A stretch of DNA of 64,000 nt. Origin: Sulfolobus sp. S-194. Its GTDB lineage: Archaea > Thermoproteota > Thermoprotei_A > Sulfolobales > Sulfolobaceae. The position numbers were made by a program, and so were the translations under genes. The stretch spans positions 372,001 to 436,000 of the forward strand of contig NZ_CP035730.1 in NCBI RefSeq assembly GCF_012222305.1, read 5' to 3'. Positions within the stretch are counted from its first letter, which is position 1, and each line of letters opens with the position of its first letter. The notes under the pieces are model-generated. The model did no database searches and was not told the DNA's origin. It was given only the letters and a program-made list of their open reading frames with translations. Positions 7,965 to 22,051 of the stretch are shown here, piece by piece.

Positions 7965-8944
7965 GAGGAACCACCTTGAAAAGTATTACCAAAATCTTCC
8001 AAAGTAGTGTAACAATTTGTTACACTTTGACCTTTCTTTAATAATAATTTAGGACAACCAGTTTTTTCATCATATCCATCTAGGTATGCGACCCCTTCTA
8101 AATCAGAGGAATGATCCATTATGGGTGGTGCATGAAGATTCATCCCAACAGCATATAAGTAATCGGTACTGGAATCCCAGTATAATTCAACATAAGGAAG
8201 AGGCCTTACTGTAGGCCCAGTAAGTACAGCAGCCCCATGCCATGGATCATAAGTTGATCCGTGACAATCACAATGTATAATACTTATGGCATTAGCAGCT
8301 TGTGCAGCCTGATAAGCATCTGGTGGAATATAGTTGGGAGTTGCACCTCCAACTTTAAAGTACTGTGGAGGGTAAAAGTGAATTTCTGGTGGTACACATC
8401 CTAAATGTTGACAAATCGCACTATATGCAACTATTGACTTATATGGTCCTACTCCGCCTGGGAAATGATAAGTTTTACCGGTCTCTGGAATAAGAACTTC
8501 TGTTGGGGGTACTGCTACAGGATTGTTATTTTCATCACCCATGTTAATTAGAAAAGTTATATCACCAAGCATAGGATATTCAAAAAGTAAGATTGCTGGA
8601 TCGTTAACTGGTATTTTAGATGCTTCTATTGGATTTCCATTAGAATCCACAATAATCATCCATGGAAAAGACTTCAAGTATATTTCTTGCGGATTAAGGG
8701 AATTGATTAAGGGAATTGCTGAAGCCACAGCAAAAACACCAATACCAATAAGCAAACCTTTAAGAAATGCTCTCTTTGAAGGATCTAATGGACCTACATT
8801 CTGTTCAGCATAATTATATAAGTAATCCCTTCCTTTCTTTATAAATTCTTTTGTATCAAACTTTGAGTTTTTATTCCTCATTTTCCATAAAAGTTTCTTG
8901 GCAAATATAAAGTCGTCTCTTTTTATGATGATTTTGTCCTTCAT
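7961..8944 (-). CDS. soxL: Rieske iron-sulfur protein SoxL
   Basis: A 327-residue membrane-anchored Rieske protein. Residues about 57-80 form the N-terminal anchor after a basic KRAFLKG stretch (Tat-like but lacking paired arginines). The [2Fe-2S] ligands are C178 and H180 (CQHLGC) and C225 and H228 (CDCHGSTYDPWHG), with C183 and C227 as the stabilising disulfide. The protein would transfer electrons from quinol between cytochrome b (SoxC-type) and the oxidase on the outer face of the membrane. It is divergently transcribed from soxABC and heads an operon of small membrane proteins. The Rieske identity is certain; the soxL name rests on context. Confidence 0.92.
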   Translation of the reverse strand: MKDKIIIKRDDFIFAKKLLWKMRNKNSKFDTKEFIKKGRDYLYNYAEQNVGPLDPSKRAFLKGLLIGIGVFAVASAIPLINSLNPQEIYLKSFPWMIIVDSNGNPIEASKIPVNDPAILLFEYPMLGDITFLINMGDENNNPVAVPPTEVLIPETGKTYHFPGGVGPYKSIVAYSAICQHLGCVPPEIHFYPPQYFKVGGATPNYIPPDAYQAAQAANAISIIHCDCHGSTYDPWHGAAVLTGPTVRPLPYVELYWDSSTDYLYAVGMNLHAPPIMDHSSDLEGVAYLDGYDEKTGCPKLLLKKGQSVTNCYTTLEDFGNTFQGGSS

Positions 8945-9180
8945 ACTCTCTACATGTTTTGAGTTATTTTTGCATATATAAAAACTTTACTCATATACAA
9001 TTTTGCAAATATTTATTAACTATACAAATATTCTTTTTAACTAAAAATCGTAAAAGATTTTTTATTTAAAATAAACTTATTAGATTTAGTAAATTATACT
9101 ACGCTAATTTTTAATGAAAATATTGCAAACTTGATTGTTATTAAAAATAATGTTTTTAAACTCTATTAACTATTATAGTC
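8945..9180. promoter_or_regulatory. Divergent soxL / soxABC promoter region
   Basis: The 236-bp gap holds promoters for both directions. Toward soxL, the minus-strand box TTTTTATATATG (8973-8984) is about 35 nt from the ATG, leaving a leader of under ten bases. Toward soxA, TTTTTAAA (9153-9160) is centred 25 nt before the ATG at 9181, so that message should be leaderless. The remainder is extremely AT-rich with repeated aaaat/attaa words and could host regulator sites, but I see no clear palindrome. Confidence 0.6.
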
Positions 9181-9699
9181 ATGATTATAATGAGCTTTAT
9201 CAAAGAGCATGCAGAATTAGTATGGTTTGTAATAATGTTAACATTAGTAGCAATTTTTAGCGGATGGAACATATATGGAGTAACGCATGGAACGAGTACA
9301 AGTTATAGATATGGATTGCCTTGTTTTTCTGGTTTACCACAACAAGCACAGCAAGCAGTACTATATTTTGATTCTCATCCTCCATCTGGACAACCATATG
9401 AAGTTATTAACGGAATATTAGTAGTTAATATGACAATAACCCAGCAAAATGGATTTGTACCAAATTTAATAATAACAAACACAAGCGAGCCAGTAGTCAT
9501 AATTTTAAATTCACCTCAAGTAATTACTGGTTTCTACTTAAGACTACCAGATGGTGTTGTACAAGTAAATGCAGTTCCTGGAACTCCAAGCTATATATAT
9601 TTCGTAACACCCTCCGCTCCAGGCAATTTTACCTGGAGGGATTCTGAGTATTCTGCATATAATTTCTCTTACTTTAATGGAACATTAGAGGTGATATAA
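9181..9699 (+). CDS. soxA: Quinol oxidase subunit II (SoxA)
   Basis: A 172-residue subunit II: one N-terminal membrane helix (about residues 11-30) and a cupredoxin-like outer domain. The Cu-A ligand cluster (CxxxC...H...M) of cytochrome-c oxidases is absent; the corresponding stretch reads FTWRDSEYSAYNF. Loss of Cu-A is the rule for quinol oxidases, and the length agrees with the 168-residue S. acidocaldarius SoxA. Start at 9181 is favoured by the TATA spacing; an in-frame ATG follows at 9190. Ends 2 nt before soxB. Confidence 0.88.
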   Translation: MIIMSFIKEHAELVWFVIMLTLVAIFSGWNIYGVTHGTSTSYRYGLPCFSGLPQQAQQAVLYFDSHPPSGQPYEVINGILVVNMTITQQNGFVPNLIITNTSEPVVIILNSPQVITGFYLRLPDGVVQVNAVPGTPSYIYFVTPSAPGNFTWRDSEYSAYNFSYFNGTLEVI

Positions 9700-9701
9700 A
9701 A

Positions 9702-11276
<1,575 letters not shown>

Positions 11277-12968
11277 ATGGAAGAAAGACAGGAGAAAAAA
11301 GAAGAAGAACAAAAGAAAGTAGGATTTTTTGACGCAATTTTAGATAGAATAGGAATAAATGAAGCACCATTATTTAGAACACCAGATTATATGTATAACG
11401 TTTCATATTGGCTTGGGGGATTAGTAGCCGCAAGCTTTGCATACACAGTAATTACTGGACTAATTCTCCTCCTCCTTTATAATCCAGCCAATGCATACCA
11501 ACAAACCCAAACAATAATCAATGATATACCATATGGGGCAGTAATACTATTCAGCCATCTTTACGGAGCTTACATTATGATCATTCTTGTTTATGTACAT
11601 ATGTTCAGAAACTTCTATAAGGGGGCTTATAAAAAACCAAGAGAATTACAATGGGTTACTGGGGTATTACTCCTTGCATTAACATTAGGAGCTTCATTCT
11701 TTGGATATAGCTTAGTAGGAGATGTATTAGGAATAAATGCAGTAGATATAGGAAGTTCATTACTTATAGGAACAGGTTTTCCAGGTGCTACTACAGTAGT
11801 AGGTTGGTTATTTGGTCCCGGAATAGATGCAGTACAGTCAAGTAACCCAGCAGTTAGAGCAGAGTTCTTCAGTAGAATACTAGGCTGGCACATAATAATG
11901 GTAGCATTAATTGGTTTACTATTTGTCTTCCACTTAATGTTAGCTGAAAGATACGGAATGACACCATCTGCAAAAGAAAAGCCTAAAGTACCAGCTTACT
12001 ACACAAAGGAAGAACAAGAGAAGTTTAACCAATGGTGGCCTAGAAATTTCGTGTACATGTTGTCCTTAGTATTAATGACATGGGGAGTAATACTAATTGT
12101 TCCGGATGTATTAGCAAACTTAAACTCCATTGTTAGCTTACCGATAGTAATTAACCCGTTCCCTGCACCACAAGCGTTTACACCAGCTGCAAATAATGTT
12201 CAACCATATCCTCCATGGTTCTTCTTGTTCCTTTATAAGTTCGTTGACTTCTTACTACCAAACGGAGTACCAATATTACCATCGATGGTAATTGCGGTAC
12301 TTATTATAGGCCTAGTTATCCTAATGTTGATACCATTCTTTGAAAACAGTAACTTAATGTATATAAGTAGCAGAAAGTTCTGGACATGGGTGATGTCACT
12401 ATTAGCTTATTCACTAGTAGCACTATCAATTTGGGGATATCTATATCCCGGTGTACCAGCTCCTACAAATGATCAAATCTTGGTTTTAGGAATACCCGCA
12501 TTGATCTTAGCTATTATCATAGGTTTGTCTGATAAGTTTAAGAGAAGAAAAGAAAAAGTACCAACACCAACTCAAATACCTAAGATAACGCCAACCTCAA
12601 TTCTGGGAACATCTGTGGTAACGCTATTATTTGCAGGGACATTTGGTGATTTCATAATAAGACCTAGTTTACTAGGCTTATTCTCACTATTCCCGCTGGG
12701 TATTTTAGTTTATCACTTCGTTAGTAAAATGGTAAAGGCATTTAATAACAATAACAGTGGTACAGTAACTTACCCAATAACGAAGAAAATGGCACTTGTT
12801 GCAATACCAGCAATATTTGTCATTACAATATTCTTATTTGCACTATTCCTAGAGTTACCTAGCGTTGGGGTGCAAAGCACATATGCCGGAATTGACCTAG
12901 GTGTAATCTTCTTCCTATGGGGCTACGCGATAAACTTATACCACTACCTAGTTTATGTGAAAGGTTGA
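11277..12968 (+). CDS. soxC: Cytochrome b (SoxC)
   Basis: A 563-residue cytochrome b/b6-type protein, exactly the length remembered for S. acidocaldarius SoxC. Two histidine pairs with 14-residue spacing ligate the hemes: H94/H108 and H205/H219. The quinol-site PEWY motif appears as PPWFFLFLYKF around residues 305-315. A long charged linker (KFKRRKEKVPTPTQ) precedes three further C-terminal helices. An AGGAGGTG ribosome-binding site lies inside the soxB 3' end, directly before the ATG at 11277. Together with SoxL it would act as a bc1-like module feeding SoxB. Confidence 0.92.
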   Translation: MEERQEKKEEEQKKVGFFDAILDRIGINEAPLFRTPDYMYNVSYWLGGLVAASFAYTVITGLILLLLYNPANAYQQTQTIINDIPYGAVILFSHLYGAYIMIILVYVHMFRNFYKGAYKKPRELQWVTGVLLLALTLGASFFGYSLVGDVLGINAVDIGSSLLIGTGFPGATTVVGWLFGPGIDAVQSSNPAVRAEFFSRILGWHIIMVALIGLLFVFHLMLAERYGMTPSAKEKPKVPAYYTKEEQEKFNQWWPRNFVYMLSLVLMTWGVILIVPDVLANLNSIVSLPIVINPFPAPQAFTPAANNVQPYPPWFFLFLYKFVDFLLPNGVPILPSMVIAVLIIGLVILMLIPFFENSNLMYISSRKFWTWVMSLLAYSLVALSIWGYLYPGVPAPTNDQILVLGIPALILAIIIGLSDKFKRRKEKVPTPTQIPKITPTSILGTSVVTLLFAGTFGDFIIRPSLLGLFSLFPLGILVYHFVSKMVKAFNNNNSGTVTYPITKKMALVAIPAIFVITIFLFALFLELPSVGVQSTYAGIDLGVIFFLWGYAINLYHYLVYVKG

Positions 12969-13008
12969 AAGGTAAAACTTTTTTTACTTTAACTTCAAAT
13001 TTATATTT

Positions 13009-14230: not shown

Positions 14231-16537
14231 TTAACTACTACTCTTTCTTCTTACCAACAAAAATAAGATTAGAGCGTAAAAAAGAACATTAAGAATAATA
14301 ACTGGGACTAAGTGATAACCTGGAGGTTTCTCAGCCTTACCGAGAATAATATTATAACCAACGCTGGAAATAACATCACCAACAACTGGATAAGTTACGA
14401 CAGTTACGTTCTTAGGGTGAAGATTTATAGTGTCATTAACCCACAAAGAGTAGGGAATAAGTTCAAGATTTACAATATACGTTATCTTATTATCTGGATG
14501 AATGATCTCTATCTCTCCATTAGAAGAAATAATGCCTAGATATGAGGAAACAACAGAAAGAGTAGTATTAGCAGTATCTACACTTAGAGAAACACTACCA
14601 TTACAAATTTCAATAACACCTCCTTCTGAATAAGAAATATAAGTCAAAACAACAGCATACTTACCAGGAGAAACAAAGATATTCTCGCTTGCAGGATTAC
14701 CTACCTGGATTAGCGAAATACCCGGGAAAGCTGAGAGAATTTGGAGAGTATGAGCATTAACGTAAATAGTGCATGAAAAGTTAGTAGGATAGGGTAAGCG
14801 CTGAGCAGGAATCTTAACACTATAATTACGGAAAACATCAGCCTTAATATATATTTCACTACCTCCAATAATTCCAGCTAAATACTCTGGAGGTACGTAA
14901 AGGTAATACGGAACAGCAGCTACATCTTCATTTAAATCATTTACGTTATAGACTAGATAAATACCTCTTGAGGAGAAAGTTGATTTATAATCAAGGTTCT
15001 TAAAAACGTATATACCACTAAAGTTTTTAACAAGCTCGAGGTCTTTCTGGGAAAGGAAATAGGAGAGATTTTCATTAGCTATGACATATTCCACACCATA
15101 ATATTCGAGGATATTGCCTAGGTGAGTAGTATTAAAGAAAGGAATAAAAACAGAATTCGGAACACCGGCAAAGACCTCGGGATCATAGTACTTACCGTGA
15201 TAATATATTGTAGTGCCGTAGACTGCTACTTTAGCTCCATGTAAATACTCAGCAGCTTGAACTAAGTTTTGAGGCACAGGTAAAGGTACGTAATTGTATT
15301 CATAATTACCAGAAGCAAATGAGGGAGATGAGAAGACTAACTGAGCCGAAATTACCAAAATTAAGATAATAAGAGAGATTAACCTTTGAATCTCACCTTT
15401 TTCAGTAAGCAGAAAGTTTATTTCGTAAACAAAGGTAAGAAATAAAGGAGCGATAATCATCTCACTTAAATAACTTGGAATAATAACCCACATGTAAGGA
15501 AACAGAGGTGAGTCCTTTAGCCAATTATTCAGATAATAAATCAAGTTTAGGTTAAAAACGTGGTTAAACACCACTATGTAAGAGGATATTGAAATTACTA
15601 AGAAAGAATATAGAAAGAAATAGAAAACAGCATCTGTACGTATAATTTTAAAGAACAGATAGAAAAAGGATAAAACAACAAAAACGGGTAAAAAGAAAGA
15701 GAAAACATAGGAAAAGAGAGTGTTACCGGAATAAAAATTTATTAAAGGGGCGAATAACCCAATTCCCCTTAAATTATCTGAGAGTGAGAATGTATAATAA
15801 TTTAACCAGAGTTGCACAACAGAAATTGAAGAACCAGTAGAAACGTAGACATTATGTTGAACAAGTAGAGAATAGAAAGTTCTTACATTTTCCATTATAT
15901 AGAACGGAAAAGAGAATAGTACAATTTTCAGAAAATAAAAATCCCTTTTAATTACTCTGTACATGACATAAAGAAAAAGAGTGAGAAAAGAGAAAATAAA
16001 ACCTCTCGGATCTGTAGTAACTAGTGTTAACAACAACGAGAGAAGAATACTACTACGAAGGAGAGAAAAGTTCTTTTTGTTCACATAATCTAGACCAACT
16101 AGAAACAATGGGTATAAAGCAACAAAAGTAGAGTAATCAGTCCAGTAAGTGAAATACATGAAAGTTGGCGAAATTATGTACAAAAAAGCTACTATCAAAG
16201 ATATTATTTCCTTATACCTAGTTCGGAGAATATAATAAGATGCAAAATACATGGAAACAAAACCTAAGAAAATTGGGTAGGCATAACTTAGTTTATCCCA
16301 TATTTCTGGATAGAGAGAAAAAATGTAAATAGGAAGATCCGAAGTATCCATAATGAAAAGTAAATTTATTTGACCATTATTAACCAAAGTAGGAAAATAA
16401 CCTATAATTGATGGATAAGAATCTCTCACATAAACTAAACCGGGAGAAAACAACATAGATCTAAGAATAAAGAATGTAGATAAAAGCCCGCATAAAAAAG
16501 GAATTAACAATTTGTACTTTTTTATGTTCATTGACAT
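14231..16537 (-). CDS. Large polytopic membrane protein with C-terminal ectodomain (GT-C-like)
   Basis: A 768-residue protein. Residues 1 to about 400 contain roughly a dozen membrane helices; the first outer loop has VYVRDSYPS and later DTSDLP, acidic motifs in the place where GT-C glycosyltransferases keep their catalytic Asp. Then come about 340 residues of extracytoplasmic, strand-rich sequence with several NxS/T sequons, and a final membrane helix with a basic tail (LLVRRKSSS). Topology resembles GT-C enzymes and YfhO-like proteins that handle lipid-linked sugars, but no definite family is recognised. It ends 57 nt downstream of the minus-strand pilin and could serve surface glycosylation. 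Confidence 0.6.
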   Translation of the reverse strand: MSMNIKKYKLLIPFLCGLLSTFFILRSMLFSPGLVYVRDSYPSIIGYFPTLVNNGQINLLFIMDTSDLPIYIFSLYPEIWDKLSYAYPIFLGFVSMYFASYYILRTRYKEIISLIVAFLYIISPTFMYFTYWTDYSTFVALYPLFLVGLDYVNKKNFSLLRSSILLSLLLTLVTTDPRGFIFSFLTLFLYVMYRVIKRDFYFLKIVLFSFPFYIMENVRTFYSLLVQHNVYVSTGSSISVVQLWLNYYTFSLSDNLRGIGLFAPLINFYSGNTLFSYVFSFFLPVFVVLSFFYLFFKIIRTDAVFYFFLYSFLVISISSYIVVFNHVFNLNLIYYLNNWLKDSPLFPYMWVIIPSYLSEMIIAPLFLTFVYEINFLLTEKGEIQRLISLIILILVISAQLVFSSPSFASGNYEYNYVPLPVPQNLVQAAEYLHGAKVAVYGTTIYYHGKYYDPEVFAGVPNSVFIPFFNTTHLGNILEYYGVEYVIANENLSYFLSQKDLELVKNFSGIYVFKNLDYKSTFSSRGIYLVYNVNDLNEDVAAVPYYLYVPPEYLAGIIGGSEIYIKADVFRNYSVKIPAQRLPYPTNFSCTIYVNAHTLQILSAFPGISLIQVGNPASENIFVSPGKYAVVLTYISYSEGGVIEICNGSVSLSVDTANTTLSVVSSYLGIISSNGEIEIIHPDNKITYIVNLELIPYSLWVNDTINLHPKNVTVVTYPVVGDVISSVGYNIILGKAEKPPGYHLVPVIILNVLFYALILFLLVRRKSSS

Positions 16538-16593: not shown

Positions 16594-17019
16594 TTATTGT
16601 GCTATTACTGAGACTTGCACAGTTGATCCATCACTTAAGGCTATAGAGATTGTATAAGTACTACCAGTTTGTAAACTACTTAATGCTGAAGTACTAAAAC
16701 CGATACTTACTACATTTATACCTGCAGTTAAAGTTGTTACATTAATAGAACTAGTACCCGCACTATATGATGTTCCAGAAATTGTCGCACTAAGTATTTG
16801 TACATTTCCAGAAGACTTTAAAGTAATTACTGCATAACCCTTACTGACGTAAATATATCCTGTTCCTACTTGTGTTACTGTTGGTGTTCCTCCAAAAGCT
16901 CCGAAAAGTCCGAAAGCAAATCCAACAACTACTAATGCTATTATTACTGATGCAATTACTAGAATTAGTGCAGTTACAGCACCACTCAATCCCTTCTTAG
17001 CCTTCCTCCTCAACAACAT
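16594..17019 (-). CDS. Type IV pilin-like protein, copy 1
   Basis: 141 residues. A class III signal ([18 protein letters not shown]) with a probable PibD cleavage after G10 is followed by a 25-residue hydrophobic alpha-helix and a small Ser/Thr/Gly-rich beta domain, the layout of archaeal type IV pilins. The first 86 codons and the last 16 or so match the plus-strand copy at 20995-21432 exactly at DNA level, while the stretch between (about residues 87-127) differs ([11 protein letters not shown]). Its promoter region also resembles that of copy 2. It could be the Aap-type adhesive pilus subunit or a related filament. Confidence 0.8.
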
Positions 17020-17037
17020 ATTTACTCACAAAAATAT
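16760..17037 (-). repeat. Perfect 278-bp inverted repeat, left arm (in pilin copy 1)
   Basis: Reading the minus strand from 17037 to 16760 gives the same 278 bases as the plus strand from 20977 to 21254: 18 bases of leader and the first 260 bases of the pilin gene. Upstream sequence is similar but no longer identical. A second shorter identity of about 49 bases covers the gene ends and a few bases past the stop. Exact identity in a third-codon-position-rich coding stretch points to recent duplication or ongoing gene conversion. Confidence 0.9.
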
Positions 17038-17412
17038 TCATTAAATATCTATATAAATTTTTCTGTGCGTTAACAGAGTGTGAATAGTAGTGTAGTTATT
17101 TGTATATAACTTAATTAATTTAAGGGAGATCTCCTTATGAAGCGATCACTAAAATGAGGTCCTCATATACTTTATTTTAGGATAGGAAAAATAGATAAGA
17201 GAATATCGTATCAGTTACTGAATTTAATTAATTGCCATTAGCTGACTACACTATTCAAATAAGTATGAAACAAAACAAGGGAATAACAAGCTAATTTTTA
17301 AAATTCCTTTAATCATGGTTAAATATAAATAACAAATCGAGAAATTATAATGGATGATTTAAGTGGCCAGGACTGATATTATGATGAAATGTTTTTATGA
17401 TGAGGTGATAGA
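17038..17412. other. Intergenic region between pilin copy 1 and ectodomain protein
   Basis: About 375 bp. It contains the minus-strand pilin promoter (TATA-like aaatttatatag read on the minus strand, near 17049-17060) and two short palindromes, GGAGATCTCC at 17125-17134 and ATGAGG/CCTCAT around 17154-17166. The end of the interval provides a GAGGTGAT ribosome-binding site for the gene at 17413. No open frame or tRNA-like fold is apparent otherwise. Confidence 0.5.
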
Positions 17413-18069
17413 ATGTTGTTACCCTTCCTATTATTATTTTTACTAATTATACCTCATCACCCCTTCTTTATAGAATATAAAACTATATCTTATTTCGTAT
17501 CATCTAATAGTACATTATATGGTTTAATTATAGAAAATATCACAAATATTTATAGTAATGATACTGTAAAATTTGAATTTTATTTAATTAATCTTAATTA
17601 TTCTGAATATATAGGTCCAATGATTGAGTTTAACAATCTTTCTTCTCCTACCATACTTTATTATTTCCCTCAAGTCGGGAGTAACATTGTGCAAAGGGGT
17701 AGTTTAGTGTTTCAATTAGTAGGGGATAAAAACGGTTGTTATATTTACGAGAATGTTCAACACCCAGTTTCAACAGTTTCAGTAGTAACTTATTATTACG
17801 TTAATGATTCTGGTATTCCTTCTAAGATTGTATTTCTTCAATACGGGCTTAATGGACTTGTGAGTAATAATACATATATTCTTTATTCTAGTAATTTGAT
17901 CAACTCAAATGAAAAAATTTATTTTCCTAGTGGGTTGCAAAAGGTTAGTCGGGCTTTTTCTCTTAACGCATTCGAACATGAAGTGGAAAATATTGTTTTT
18001 TCGGTCATACTACTTGGAATTCCAGTGCTTCTTCTATTTTCTAAAAAGAAGTATTATAATAATTCCTAA
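17413..18069 (+). CDS. Secreted membrane-anchored ectodomain protein, paralogue A
   Basis: 218 residues: hydrophobic signal segment at 1-16, an outer domain of about 170 residues rich in Asn/Ser/Tyr with many N-glycosylation sequons, and a C-terminal membrane helix (about 191-209) with a Lys-rich tail. A GAGGTGAT site precedes the ATG. It aligns with the convergent protein at 18034-18729 (shared patterns LYY-P, V-RGS, VN-SG, LVSN-T), so the two are diverged paralogues facing each other; their 3' ends overlap by 36 bp. Function unknown; surface protein likely. Confidence 0.65.
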   Translation: MLLPFLLLFLLIIPHHPFFIEYKTISYFVSSNSTLYGLIIENITNIYSNDTVKFEFYLINLNYSEYIGPMIEFNNLSSPTILYYFPQVGSNIVQRGSLVFQLVGDKNGCYIYENVQHPVSTVSVVTYYYVNDSGIPSKIVFLQYGLNGLVSNNTYILYSSNLINSNEKIYFPSGLQKVSRAFSLNAFEHEVENIVFSVILLGIPVLLLFSKKKYYNNS

Positions 18070-18729
18070 AACACCTGCAATGAGTATGTATTCTAAGAGC
18101 TTATGAGAGACAACAAGAACAGTCTTATTTAAATTTGCACTAACTACATGAGCTTCAGTATATCCTGGAAATTTTGGTAAAGGAGTTGCAGGGTCAAAAT
18201 AGTTCGATTTCCATAGGACTGCTGTAGCATTACTTACTAACTGTAGAGTAGCTCCTATCTGAAGTGTCTGTACCTTAACAGCAACACCCGATGAGTTAAC
18301 CCACATAAAGAATTCTATAACAACATCTTGAATGTTTGATTTACTCTCATAAACGTATAAGCCATTACTATAATTTACAAAACATATTTCAGAACTCCCT
18401 CTAGTAACGTTTTTGCCTAATAAGTGTGGGGGTATGTAATATAAGTTAGTTGGAAAGGATAAATTACTAAGGGAAACTACTGGAGGTAAATAGTACTTTT
18501 CATCAACATTATAAATTGTTAAATTTACTGCTATAGTATTATTAGGATATACTCCAACAATTCTCTGTAAGAGAACTTCATGAATAGTTGTTGTACTCCC
18601 GTTTGGTAATGTCATAATAACTGTTTGGTTATAGGCAAAGAATATATTAGGGGCAAAACTTACGCTTGCATGTAATAAACCCGCAAATAAGGGAAAAGTT
18701 AATAATAGAAAAAGTAAGAGAGATTTCAT
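18034..18729 (-). CDS. Secreted membrane-anchored ectodomain protein, paralogue B
   Basis: 231 residues with a signal peptide (about 1-22, ending near LHASVSFA), an outer domain of about 180 residues with numerous NxS/T sequons, and a C-terminal membrane helix followed by RK. It is recognisably homologous to the protein encoded head-on at 17413-18069 (for example LYYIPPHL, TRGSS, VNSSGV, LVSNATAVLW). Unlike paralogue A it carries the extra region PATPLPKFPGYTEAH before the anchor. No catalytic motif is seen; a cell-surface or pilus-associated role is inferred from neighbours. Confidence 0.7.
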   Translation of the reverse strand: MKSLLLFLLLTFPLFAGLLHASVSFAPNIFFAYNQTVIMTLPNGSTTTIHEVLLQRIVGVYPNNTIAVNLTIYNVDEKYYLPPVVSLSNLSFPTNLYYIPPHLLGKNVTRGSSEICFVNYSNGLYVYESKSNIQDVVIEFFMWVNSSGVAVKVQTLQIGATLQLVSNATAVLWKSNYFDPATPLPKFPGYTEAHVVSANLNKTVLVVSHKLLEYILIAGVLGIIIILLFRK

Positions 18730-18920
18730 ATTTAAGAATTTATTCCCTAGTTATTTAAAGTTTTATGAGAAGAAGTATAGCGTAAAATATCATTTAATTA
18801 ATTAATATAATTTCTATCTAATTTATCTTCTTAAAGAACAACAATAGTTTTATCTATATAATATCTCTTGATACTATCTAGTTTTTAACACATTAAATAA
18901 ACTGGTGCATTAACTTTAGT

Positions 18921-20786
18921 TTATTTTCCGTACTTTTTCCATTCGGCTCCAGTAATTACCCCAAACCTTTTCAAAATTTCAACTCTAGGATCGTTTTGGT
19001 CAATCTCTTTTCCATAATTCTCATTAACAAATTTTCTTAGTTCTTCATGAAACTTTTTACACTCAATTCCATTAATATTAAGTATATCTTTCATGATACA
19101 TGCTTCATCAAAACTCTTGACGTTTAGTTGGAGAAGTCTTTTAGCCTCATCCTTAGATAAACCAGCTTTCACCATTTCTATTCCCTCTTTTGGTAAGCCA
19201 TATTTTACTCTCTCATAGAATTCAAGGGCTTCCTTTGCCTTTGGATGATTTAACGCTTTTAATACTCTATAAAGAGCAAAGGCTATCCATCTAGCGTTTG
19301 AAATTACATCATCGATGTCTTTTGCCGAAAGTTTTAGGCAAATAGACGCTATATCCCCTCCATTAATCCATCTTTCAATAAGTTCTTTTCCTTCTTCGCA
19401 CCCCCTTAATGATTGCAGCACAGCTGGTGATGAATATACAACGTCTAGTGGATTAAAGTCTTGTATGTTCACTGGAAAGCCGTTCAACGCTGAAACGTCA
19501 ATATAACTTAACGCTACAGCCTTTCCTAAGGGTGTTAGCTTTAGCATTTCCCTTTTCTCTACTAGATTCTGTTTTACTAGATAGTCTATTGCTGGTTTTA
19601 CTTCTTTCTCCTTAAATGTAAATGAACTCTTCCTTATTAGTTCCTCAACTTCTTCCTCCATTCTACTGAACCAGCTTATAACACCCAGCGTTAGGTTCTC
19701 AAGTTTAAAGTTAGCGTTATTAGTCTTATTCAGAAAGGAAGAAAAATAAGTTTTTACTACCTTATCCATTTCCTTAATTGTCTCTGTTATAACTATTGCC
19801 AATCCTTCTTCATCAAATCCAGGTCTCCCTGCCCTTCCTGCAATTTGCTTAAATTCTGCTAATGACAGATCCCTCCATCCTTTAAACTCTCCTTTATCAT
19901 CTGAGTCAGGCAATGAGATGTCATAAAAGACCGTAGCATAAACGGGTAAATTTACTCCTTGACCCAATGCCGTTGTAGACACTAATACTTTAACTTCGCC
20001 CTTCATAAAAGAGTCTATTACTTTATCCCTAATGTCATAAGGTAATCCGGAATGATAGGGTAGGGCTGGTATTGAGAACTTTCTAAGAGTTTCTGCGAGT
20101 GTTTCTGCGGAGTTTCTGCTTCTAACGAAGACCAATGTATTCTTTCCTAAAGACAGAATGTAATTCAGTACTCCTAAAAGTAGGTCTAATTTAGTGTTTT
20201 TCAGTCTTCTTTTCTCTATCGGTATAATCTTGTTATTGTCATAGCATTTAATTATGTAAGGAAATGCAATGCACTCATGGAGTGGCACTTTTCTTTTTTC
20301 TATTTTAATCAATTCCGCATTTAACCACTTCTTGTATTCCTCTACATTGCCTACTGTTGCACTTAATCCTATTATCGGGACTGAGTTCTCTTTTGCCCAA
20401 AGTACTATATTTTCTATTCCTAGTCCTCTATCACTTTCAACATTATGTATCTCGTCAATAATGACTAAGCTTATGTTTTTTAACCAACTGTAATTATGTC
20501 TAATAGCGCTATCAAATTTCTCGTAAGTTGTTAGTAAAGCCTCTGTTGACAGATATCTTAAATCGTCTTCATATACATCAGAATCTACATATTTTGCTTT
20601 CCTCTTTGTTGCCTTATAAACTTCTCTTGAAAGTGCCTTTAATGGTGAAGTATAAACTACTATTCCTTTTTCTTCATTAAGCAAATACTTGGCAATATGT
20701 GTTTTACCAGATCCAGTAGGAGCTACTATTAGATAATTCTTGCCATAAACGTAAGAGCTTTTGAACTGAGTAAATAATTCACTCAC
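18921..20786 (-). CDS. Ski2/Hel308-like superfamily 2 DNA/RNA helicase
   Basis: 621 residues. Motif I APTGSGKT (22-29), motif II DEIH (111-114), motif III SAT (142-144), motif V region TTALGQGVNLP and motif VI QIAGRAGRPG are all intact, followed by a winged-helix region (LTLGVISWFSR onward) and a helical C-terminus. It is about 80-100 residues shorter than Hel308/Hjm, lacking part of the N-terminal and C-terminal domains, so it is probably a separate Ski2-like paralogue. ATP-driven unwinding of forks or structured nucleic acid is the expected activity. It lies between the two inverted pilin genes. Confidence 0.85.
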   Translation of the reverse strand: MSELFTQFKSSYVYGKNYLIVAPTGSGKTHIAKYLLNEEKGIVVYTSPLKALSREVYKATKRKAKYVDSDVYEDDLRYLSTEALLTTYEKFDSAIRHNYSWLKNISLVIIDEIHNVESDRGLGIENIVLWAKENSVPIIGLSATVGNVEEYKKWLNAELIKIEKRKVPLHECIAFPYIIKCYDNNKIIPIEKRRLKNTKLDLLLGVLNYILSLGKNTLVFVRSRNSAETLAETLRKFSIPALPYHSGLPYDIRDKVIDSFMKGEVKVLVSTTALGQGVNLPVYATVFYDISLPDSDDKGEFKGWRDLSLAEFKQIAGRAGRPGFDEEGLAIVITETIKEMDKVVKTYFSSFLNKTNNANFKLENLTLGVISWFSRMEEEVEELIRKSSFTFKEKEVKPAIDYLVKQNLVEKREMLKLTPLGKAVALSYIDVSALNGFPVNIQDFNPLDVVYSSPAVLQSLRGCEEGKELIERWINGGDIASICLKLSAKDIDDVISNARWIAFALYRVLKALNHPKAKEALEFYERVKYGLPKEGIEMVKAGLSKDEAKRLLQLNVKSFDEACIMKDILNINGIECKKFHEELRKFVNENYGKEIDQNDPRVEILKRFGVITGAEWKKYGK

Positions 20787-20976
20787 AGAGGATATAAAGT
20801 GTAAAAGGATATAATTGATTTCCTTTCTTCACTCATGATTAGTAGTAACGTAATCTTGATAAAAAGTACAAAGTTTTGAGCAGGACATTTAATATAGTTT
20901 ATGTAATGTAGGTTTTACTTATCTTTCTTTTTCTTTCTACATTTATATAGGAAAAGTTTATATAGATGTCTACTTC

Positions 20977-21254
20977 ATATTTTTGTGAGTAAATATGTTG
21001 TTGAGGAGGAAGGCTAAGAAGGGATTGAGTGGTGCTGTAACTGCACTAATTCTAGTAATTGCATCAGTAATAATAGCATTAGTAGTTGTTGGATTTGCTT
21101 TCGGACTTTTCGGAGCTTTTGGAGGAACACCAACAGTAACACAAGTAGGAACAGGATATATTTACGTCAGTAAGGGTTATGCAGTAATTACTTTAAAGTC
21201 TTCTGGAAATGTACAAATACTTAGTGCGACAATTTCTGGAACATCATATAGTGC
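20977..21254 (+). repeat. Perfect 278-bp inverted repeat, right arm (in pilin copy 2)
   Basis: Same bases as the reverse complement of 16760-17037. It starts in the leader (atatttttgtgagtaaat) and ends at codon 87 of the pilin gene, exactly where the two proteins begin to differ. The interval between the arms is about 3.9 kb and carries the ectodomain pair and the helicase. Confidence 0.9.
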
Positions 21255-21432
21255 ATCTACAATTAGCGTCATCGGTGCTTCTAGCTCTAACTCTCTAACT
21301 GCTGGAGTTAATACGGTGTCGATTTATTTTGGTACATCAGATACATCTGGTTTGCAATCGGGTAGTACTTATACTATCTCCATAGCATTAAGTGATGGAT
21401 CAACTGTGCAAGTCTCAGTAATAGCACAATAA
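20995..21432 (+). CDS. Type IV pilin-like protein, copy 2
   Basis: 145 residues, with the same class III signal and hydrophobic helix as copy 1 (residues 1-86 identical) and the same C-terminus ([13 protein letters not shown]). The central part differs: residues about 87-128 read ASTISVIGASSSNS... instead of [10 protein letters not shown]..., with four extra residues. A TATA-like gtttatatag (20956-20965) lies about 30-39 nt upstream of the ATG and is shared with copy 1. Both copies look intact and expressible. A filament subunit exported and processed by the PibD peptidase is expected. Confidence 0.8.
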   Translation: MLLRRKAKKGLSGAVTALILVIASVIIALVVVGFAFGLFGAFGGTPTVTQVGTGYIYVSKGYAVITLKSSGNVQILSATISGTSYSASTISVIGASSSNSLTAGVNTVSIYFGTSDTSGLQSGSTYTISIALSDGSTVQVSVIAQ

Positions 21433-21978
21433 AGTTAGTTCTTTTTTCTTCTTATTCTCTTCTAATCAACTTTTTAAATCTATCAATGAACAATTAAATT
21501 TCTATTACTGATTATTTAATTTTTTAATAATAGTATATCTTCTTGTCCCTTAATACTTAATAGCATTTAATCGGAAAATCCTTGCAGTGAATAATTATTT
21601 CGAAAGATATCATAGATATTTATACTATATTTCATCTCAAAGAGAGTAAATTTATCAGTATTAGATGAAAATTTTATACAATAGAATCGTATTTGTTTAA
21701 AAACTGTTTCAACGTAGAATTTTTACGTAAAATGCTAACTTAAAAAATTTAAACTATTTAATTTAATTATTTGCAATTTTATATTTTGTCAGACTTTAGG
21801 GGACAAGATATTCTTCTTAATATCCTTATAAACTTAGAGAGACTTTTGTACTTTAAGTTATGAGCGAGTATAATTTAGAGTGAATTAAATTGGTTAAGGA
21901 TATTGTTATTATTCCTAGATTAAAAAAGTTTTAGTGCTAAAAATACTCTAGTGTTTTAAAATTCATGTAATACAAAGG
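21433..21978. other. AT-rich gap between pilin copy 2 and tRNA-Gln
   Basis: About 545 bp with no convincing gene. Frames are short and broken by stops in all directions. The first bases after the pilin stop include a pyrimidine-rich tract (cttttttcttcttattctcttct) that could end transcription. Two short matches around gacaagatattcttctt and tcttcttgtcc suggest minor internal repetition but nothing structured. Confidence 0.4.
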
Positions 21979-22051
21979 TAGCCGGGCTGGGATTTGAACC
22001 CAGGTCCGAGGGGCCAGAGCCCTCGATCCTTGACCACTAGACGACCCGGCT
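21979..22051 (-). tRNA. tRNA-Gln (CUG)
   Basis: A 73-nt cloverleaf on the minus strand: acceptor AGCCGGG/CCCGGCT with discriminator A, anticodon stem GAGGG/CCCTC enclosing loop CTCTGGC, which places CUG at positions 34-36, and T-arm TGGG-TTCAAAT-CCCA. No intron and no encoded CCA. The CUG anticodon assigns glutamine (CAG codons). Confidence 0.88.

Follow-up and report, generated by a model that had tools for sequence, protein, structure and literature searches.

An inverted pair of adhesive pilin genes in a Sulfurisphaera species, with identical fronts, divergent heads and an interval that is reversed in a relative

How do two neighbouring genes come to be identical at both ends and different in the middle? 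The question is raised by two type IV pilin genes that face outward, 3.9 kb apart, in a stretch of 64,000 nucleotides from Sulfolobus sp. S-194 (contig NZ_CP035730.1), called the window below. A first-pass annotation of this DNA had described perfect 278-bp arms, 49 identical bases at the 3' ends, and a differing centre with a four-residue length gap. It had also proposed recurrent gene conversion, possible flipping of the enclosed segment, and a form of antigenic variation. The description of the repeat is correct, and its coordinates are exact to the base:

16594..17019, minus strand: left adhesive pilin gene pilA, an open reading frame for an intact prepilin of 141 aa
20995..21432, plus strand: right adhesive pilin gene pilB, an open reading frame for an intact prepilin of 145 aa
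16760..17037, minus strand: left exact arm, 278 bp, with the 18 bp leader, signal peptide, core helix and early head
20977..21254, plus strand: right exact arm, 278 bp, which pairs with the left arm
16639..16759, minus strand: left divergent head cassette, 121 bp, including positions aligned to O-glycosylated pilus residues
21255..21387, plus strand: right divergent head cassette, 133 bp, including positions aligned to O-glycosylated pilus residues
16590..16638, minus strand: left identical 3' tail, 45 coding bases including the stop codon, and 4 bases downstream
21388..21436, plus strand: right identical 3' tail, 45 coding bases including the stop codon, and 4 bases downstream
17038..20976, no strand: enclosed segment, 3.9 kb, in one orientation here and in S. 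tokodaii and flipped in S. ohwakuensis (gene order, blastn)

The exact arms, in inverted orientation, begin 18 bp upstream of the ATG and end at base 260 of the coding sequence. If small mismatches are allowed, they grow to 304 bp at 98%, reaching upstream over the TATA-like TTTATATA. The full repeat is 534 bp at 86.5%, including some 50 bp 3' of the stop codons. Overall the left pilin is 89% identical to the right one, and the four-residue difference in length lies in the head cassettes. With four relatives as the reference, the two copies agree at 128 polymorphic sites in a row. No shuffle reached such a run, which gives p = 1e-4, the lowest value that 10,000 shuffles can yield.

What the genes encode can be read from homology. 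The right copy was used to search the solved pili, and the left copy is covered through its 89% identity. The matches are the Aap pili 8tib (E=8.5e-26), 8fjs, 6nav and 6w8x, from S. islandicus and S. solfataricus, and the first of these spans residues 1-143 of 145, so that the homology extends over the whole subunit, as for Aap/PilA. Both copies carry a class III signal, KKG/LSG: charged residues, a cleavage site in front of LSG, and a hydrophobic helix. The chains of 6nav and 6w8x begin at LSGAV, in agreement with the predicted cleavage site. On this homology the pair encodes adhesive (Aap/PilA) pilus subunits of a thermoacidophilic Sulfurisphaera species. The Pfam label DUF973 on these pilins stems from a shared C-terminal domain. 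Elsewhere in the genome there are seven matches to PF00437 (assembly ATPase), five of them above the cut-off, and these are candidates for AapE.

In S. islandicus the pilus carries O-glycans at T95, S97, T102, S104 and S106 (PMC11178852). All five positions align inside the divergent cassettes; T102 is a T in one copy and a V in the other. By homology, then, the differing part contains the exposed, glycan-bearing strand, which agrees with the first-pass view that the exposed part of the protein is where diversifying pressure acts.

The strongest contrast between ends and middle is in synonymous changes. Over the roughly 59 synonymous sites of the arms (helix and early head), dS between the copies is 0. 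In the divergent part of the head dS is 0.88 and dN 0.30, for a dN/dS of 0.34. At between-species rates, with sites treated as independent, the absence of synonymous arm changes has p ~2e-9. The helicase gene in the enclosed segment has a dS of 0.73 against S. ohwakuensis. Since this is similar to the value for the heads, these would be about as old as the split from S. ohwakuensis, with the fronts copied much later.

Purifying selection or codon constraint alone might be thought to keep the arms identical, given that the helix protein is nearly invariant across the family. This is hardly credible, because between this genome and S. ohwakuensis or S. tokodaii 7-10% of helix nucleotides differ, as do 22-30% in the next stretch, which is identical between the copies here. 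Synonymous differences between species in the very same stretch already contradict it.

Another conceivable history is a recent duplication, after which the heads diverged quickly under selection and no conversion took place. The identical arms would suit this, as would the closeness of the pairs in many genomes. It is nonetheless very unlikely: selection on amino acids cannot produce a head dS of 0.88 next to an arm dS of 0, and both pilin positions, one beside a 768-aa membrane protein and one beside dsrE, are common to this genome and S. ohwakuensis, which already contradicts a recent origin.

Gene conversion between the copies is supported by the same numbers, and by comparison with relatives. 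In a tree of helix DNA, copies from the same genome cluster in 10 of the 10 genomes tested (support 67-99%), yet in several genomes they occupy separate conserved positions. The copies thus evolve in concert, homogenised within genomes as in the S. islandicus type of pair. The earlier claim of gene conversion is supported by the arm and head dS values and by these conserved positions. Trees of the variable head alone are poorly supported, the sequences being short, and were not used for head orthology. A search of the literature for conversion in Sulfolobales pilins found none with the terms used.

In the Saccharolobus-genus genomes G012-G015 the two pilins of each genome match fully or almost fully along the entire head, and lie 23-27% away from the nearest other genome. 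Judged by these alignments, conversion there also covers the head. The pattern in the window is therefore one state of a general process, and not a special device. The orientation of the pair was considered as a cause of homogenisation and rejected: G007 has an inverted pair without homogenisation, and in G015 a pair that is direct and far apart has been homogenised.

The inverted repeat also bears on the DNA that it encloses. The genes in and around the pair are:

14231..16537, minus strand: 768-aa membrane protein, directly 3' of the left pilin, with a predicted GT-C-like fold
17413..18069, plus strand: tm218, a conserved pilin-locus protein with an N-terminal hydrophobic stretch and a C-terminal TM, homologous to tm231
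18034..18729, minus strand: tm231, a paralogue of tm218, convergent and overlapping with it, with a predicted beta-rich external domain and one C-terminal helix
18921..20786, minus strand: divergent Hel308-related helicase, at 220 bits against a Hel308 cut-off of 1200
21977-22051: tRNA-Gln gene, right of the pilin pair

Along the locus this genome has, in order, membrane protein (-), pilin (-), tm218 (+), tm231 (-), helicase (-), pilin (+), dsrE (+). The S. ohwakuensis locus reads membrane protein (-), pilin (-), helicase (+), tm231 (+), tm218 (-), pilin (+), dsrE (+). The blastn alignment of positions 8805-12984 of this locus (L037) to 6808-2627 of the S. ohwakuensis locus (L038) is on the minus strand, with both flanks on the plus strand. 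S. tokodaii has the order of the window. As in the S. islandicus pilA1/pilA2 pair, two inverted pilin genes surround an interval found in both orientations among relatives. These comparisons support an inversion of the enclosed 3.9 kb between species, and bear out the earlier suggestion that the long repeats could flip it between unchanged flanks. They cover one genome per species. The gene orders of G012 (Sa. caldissimus) and G018 also fit a pilin-bounded inversion, as far as gene order goes.

In which line the flip occurred can be judged from the helicase. For S. ohwakuensis its dS is 0.16 when compared with S. tokodaii and 0.73 when compared with this genome. S. ohwakuensis being the closer to S. 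tokodaii, the flip most likely took place in the S. ohwakuensis line. The left head of S. ohwakuensis is closer to the right head of the window (79% of amino acids, gaps excluded) than to the left one (62%), as would be expected if the crossover lay 3' of the heads or if conversion followed later.

An exact repeat of 278 bp can mislead short-read assembly, and the arrangement at the repeats could in principle be an artefact of this. That is very improbable indeed. The present genome shares its order with S. tokodaii, which is single-copy there. PacBio reads served to close the S. ohwakuensis genome (PMC7067957); there the longest exact repeat between the pilin copies, which are 79% identical, is 62 bp, so that misassembly is unlikely in that genome as well.

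There are further observations on the neighbouring genes. The 768-aa membrane protein is a neighbour of pilins in many of the genomes examined across the family, and it had no match in Pfam or NCBIfam. Its structural model (mean pLDDT 67) is best matched by AglB (3waj, E 2.2e-4), STT3 and ArnT, with low TM-scores (0.3). As a lead, this makes it a candidate pilin glycosyltransferase. The model of tm231 has weak LolA/LmcA-like matches. In S. javensis (L040) tm218 and tm231, as one block, have the opposite orientation with respect to the helicase. The helicase itself is present in 16 of 31 family genomes. Right of the locus in S. ohwakuensis, an amino acid permease gene is split by an inserted ORF (L038:10919-11869).

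Pilin diversity was also compared among the relatives. When S. ohwakuensis is aligned with S. tokodaii, most of the surrounding windows show about 90-97% identity, and the sites of the two pilins drop to 76% and 74%. The trough extends into the adjoining membrane protein gene, at 82-87%. For this species pair the dS of the pilin head is 0.72 versus 0.16 for the helicase. The heads are therefore probably imported or ancient alleles, and not merely fast-mutating.

Positive selection on the heads in the window is not claimed, given their dN/dS. Ratios above 1 occur only in some young pairs elsewhere and stem from few changes (24.3 non-synonymous versus 3.7 synonymous in G016, and 5.5 versus 0.5 in G012).

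Not every relative has the pair. The right-hand pilin is absent in S. tokodaii (L039:12960-14196) and S. javensis (L040:13155-13918), each of which has one close copy in the region. This contrasts with a published statement that there are two copies in every Sulfolobales genome, and means that the pair is not essential. At the expected pilin site, before tRNA-Gln, S. tokodaii has unrelated DNA, possibly from an integrated element. G016 (locus L041), placed in a Saccharolobus-like genus, has three pilins with mosaic heads. These are 69-77% identical to the pilins of the window, versus 43-59% for its genus-mates, and a transfer between genera is likely on this evidence.

Taken as a whole, the locus is in our judgement very probably explained by conversion within an inverted pilin pair, without crossover, plus an occasional inversion through crossover. 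Two intact pilin genes would be maintained as an inverted repeat. Homologous recombination without crossover would copy one gene onto the other from the leader through the signal peptide and core helix into part of the head. An occasional crossover between the copies would invert the enclosed 3.9 kb, and no DNA would be lost. Conversion would in this way keep the assembly-critical helix and the promoter-proximal DNA uniform. The glycan-bearing part of the head would drift and be exchanged, so that one pilus system would have two types of pilin. The recombination route may be of the RadA type, a constraint from co-assembly presumably keeps the helices uniform, and viruses that bind pili may be the pressure on the heads.

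Does the locus also vary the pilus by design? In Neisseria, pilE and pilS combine a constant pilin start with a variable exposed part, and conversion proceeds by homologous recombination. The likeness to the window is in the constant start, the variable exposed part and the conversion. The differences are that silent cassettes are absent from this genome, both copies are intact, and frequent change is not in evidence.

An active inverted pair could, Neisseria-like, vary the pilus within a population by shuffling heads or flipping the segment. The geometry is suitable, identical ends flank heads that are old and distinct, the three copies of G016 are visibly mosaic, and both orientations are found among species and among S. 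islandicus strains (PMC9319562). We still consider this improbable. A search of the genome with both cassettes gave no match better than E 0.1 beyond the two copies; matches below that threshold were chance ones of at most 30 nt, and the other pilins found are distant, at most 41%. The genome thus lacks the store of silent promoterless cassettes of a pilE/pilS system, and the further central cassettes that the first-pass annotation had suggested looking for were not found.

Nor is there a dedicated recombinase among the enclosed genes (tm218, tm231, helicase) or the flanking ones (membrane protein, DsrE-like protein), such as adjoins a site-specific inversion switch of the fim or hin type. The dN/dS of the divergent part is below 1. 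In S. islandicus, resistant clones of K00 16-4 had neither the inversion nor a pilA change by PCR and sequencing, and both were excluded as the cause of resistance in that strain (PMC9319562). With two intact copies only, antigenic-type variation as first proposed is not established.

Contrary to the first-pass supposition, the arrangement also has a precedent in archaea. In S. islandicus, pilA1 and pilA2 are inverted repeats, crossing over can flip the interval, and both orientations exist among genomes; that sections of the two genes are swapped was raised as a possibility (PMC9319562). These genes (M164_2742/2746; Sil_2603/2606; SiRe_2654/2659) are homologous adhesive pilins in two inverted copies, and their interval varies in content and, among strains, in orientation (PMC9319562, PMC7217056, PMC11178852). 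In some strains the two copies are the same, in others they differ (by 26 nt and 16 aa in M16.4). The window differs in belonging to another genus, with an interval that holds the helicase, tm218 and tm231, and in having identical arms with heads as divergent as between species. It is a further member of the known S. islandicus arrangement, now traced across the Sulfolobaceae, and not a new switching system. S. acidocaldarius AapA/AapB is the same kind of adhesive pilus with two pilins per locus, but its two pilin genes share a strand and lie to either side of the assembly genes (PMC7217056), and the filament is built by AapB only (PMC11178815).

A single one of the two genes, pilA1 or pilA2, is enough to restore pili, adhesion and virus susceptibility in S. 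islandicus, and adsorption of SIRV8 requires pilA1/pilA2 (PMC7217056). The M.16 population has five alleles among 12 genomes, with identical pairs in 7 of the 12 (PMC7217056). These alleles would fit conversion and allele exchange under virus pressure; for the window, this is suggested by analogy.

A bolder reading makes the inverted pair a device by which two genes diversify a filament that viruses bind. Conversion would maintain the common assembly part, heads would be swapped between the two genes and with other strains, inversion would alter the pairing of heads with upstream DNA, and populations would hold shifting pilus types. We regard this as unlikely, if somewhat less so than the Neisseria-like scheme.

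An Aap pilin in a relative is needed for infection by rod-shaped and many spindle-shaped viruses, and change in its exposed part bears on the means by which archaea alter a filament that viruses bind. The locus is a clean natural test of this: its fronts are freshly copied, its two heads have the age of a species split, and recombination in this geometry loses no DNA. It extends the S. islandicus observation to several genera of the Sulfolobaceae.
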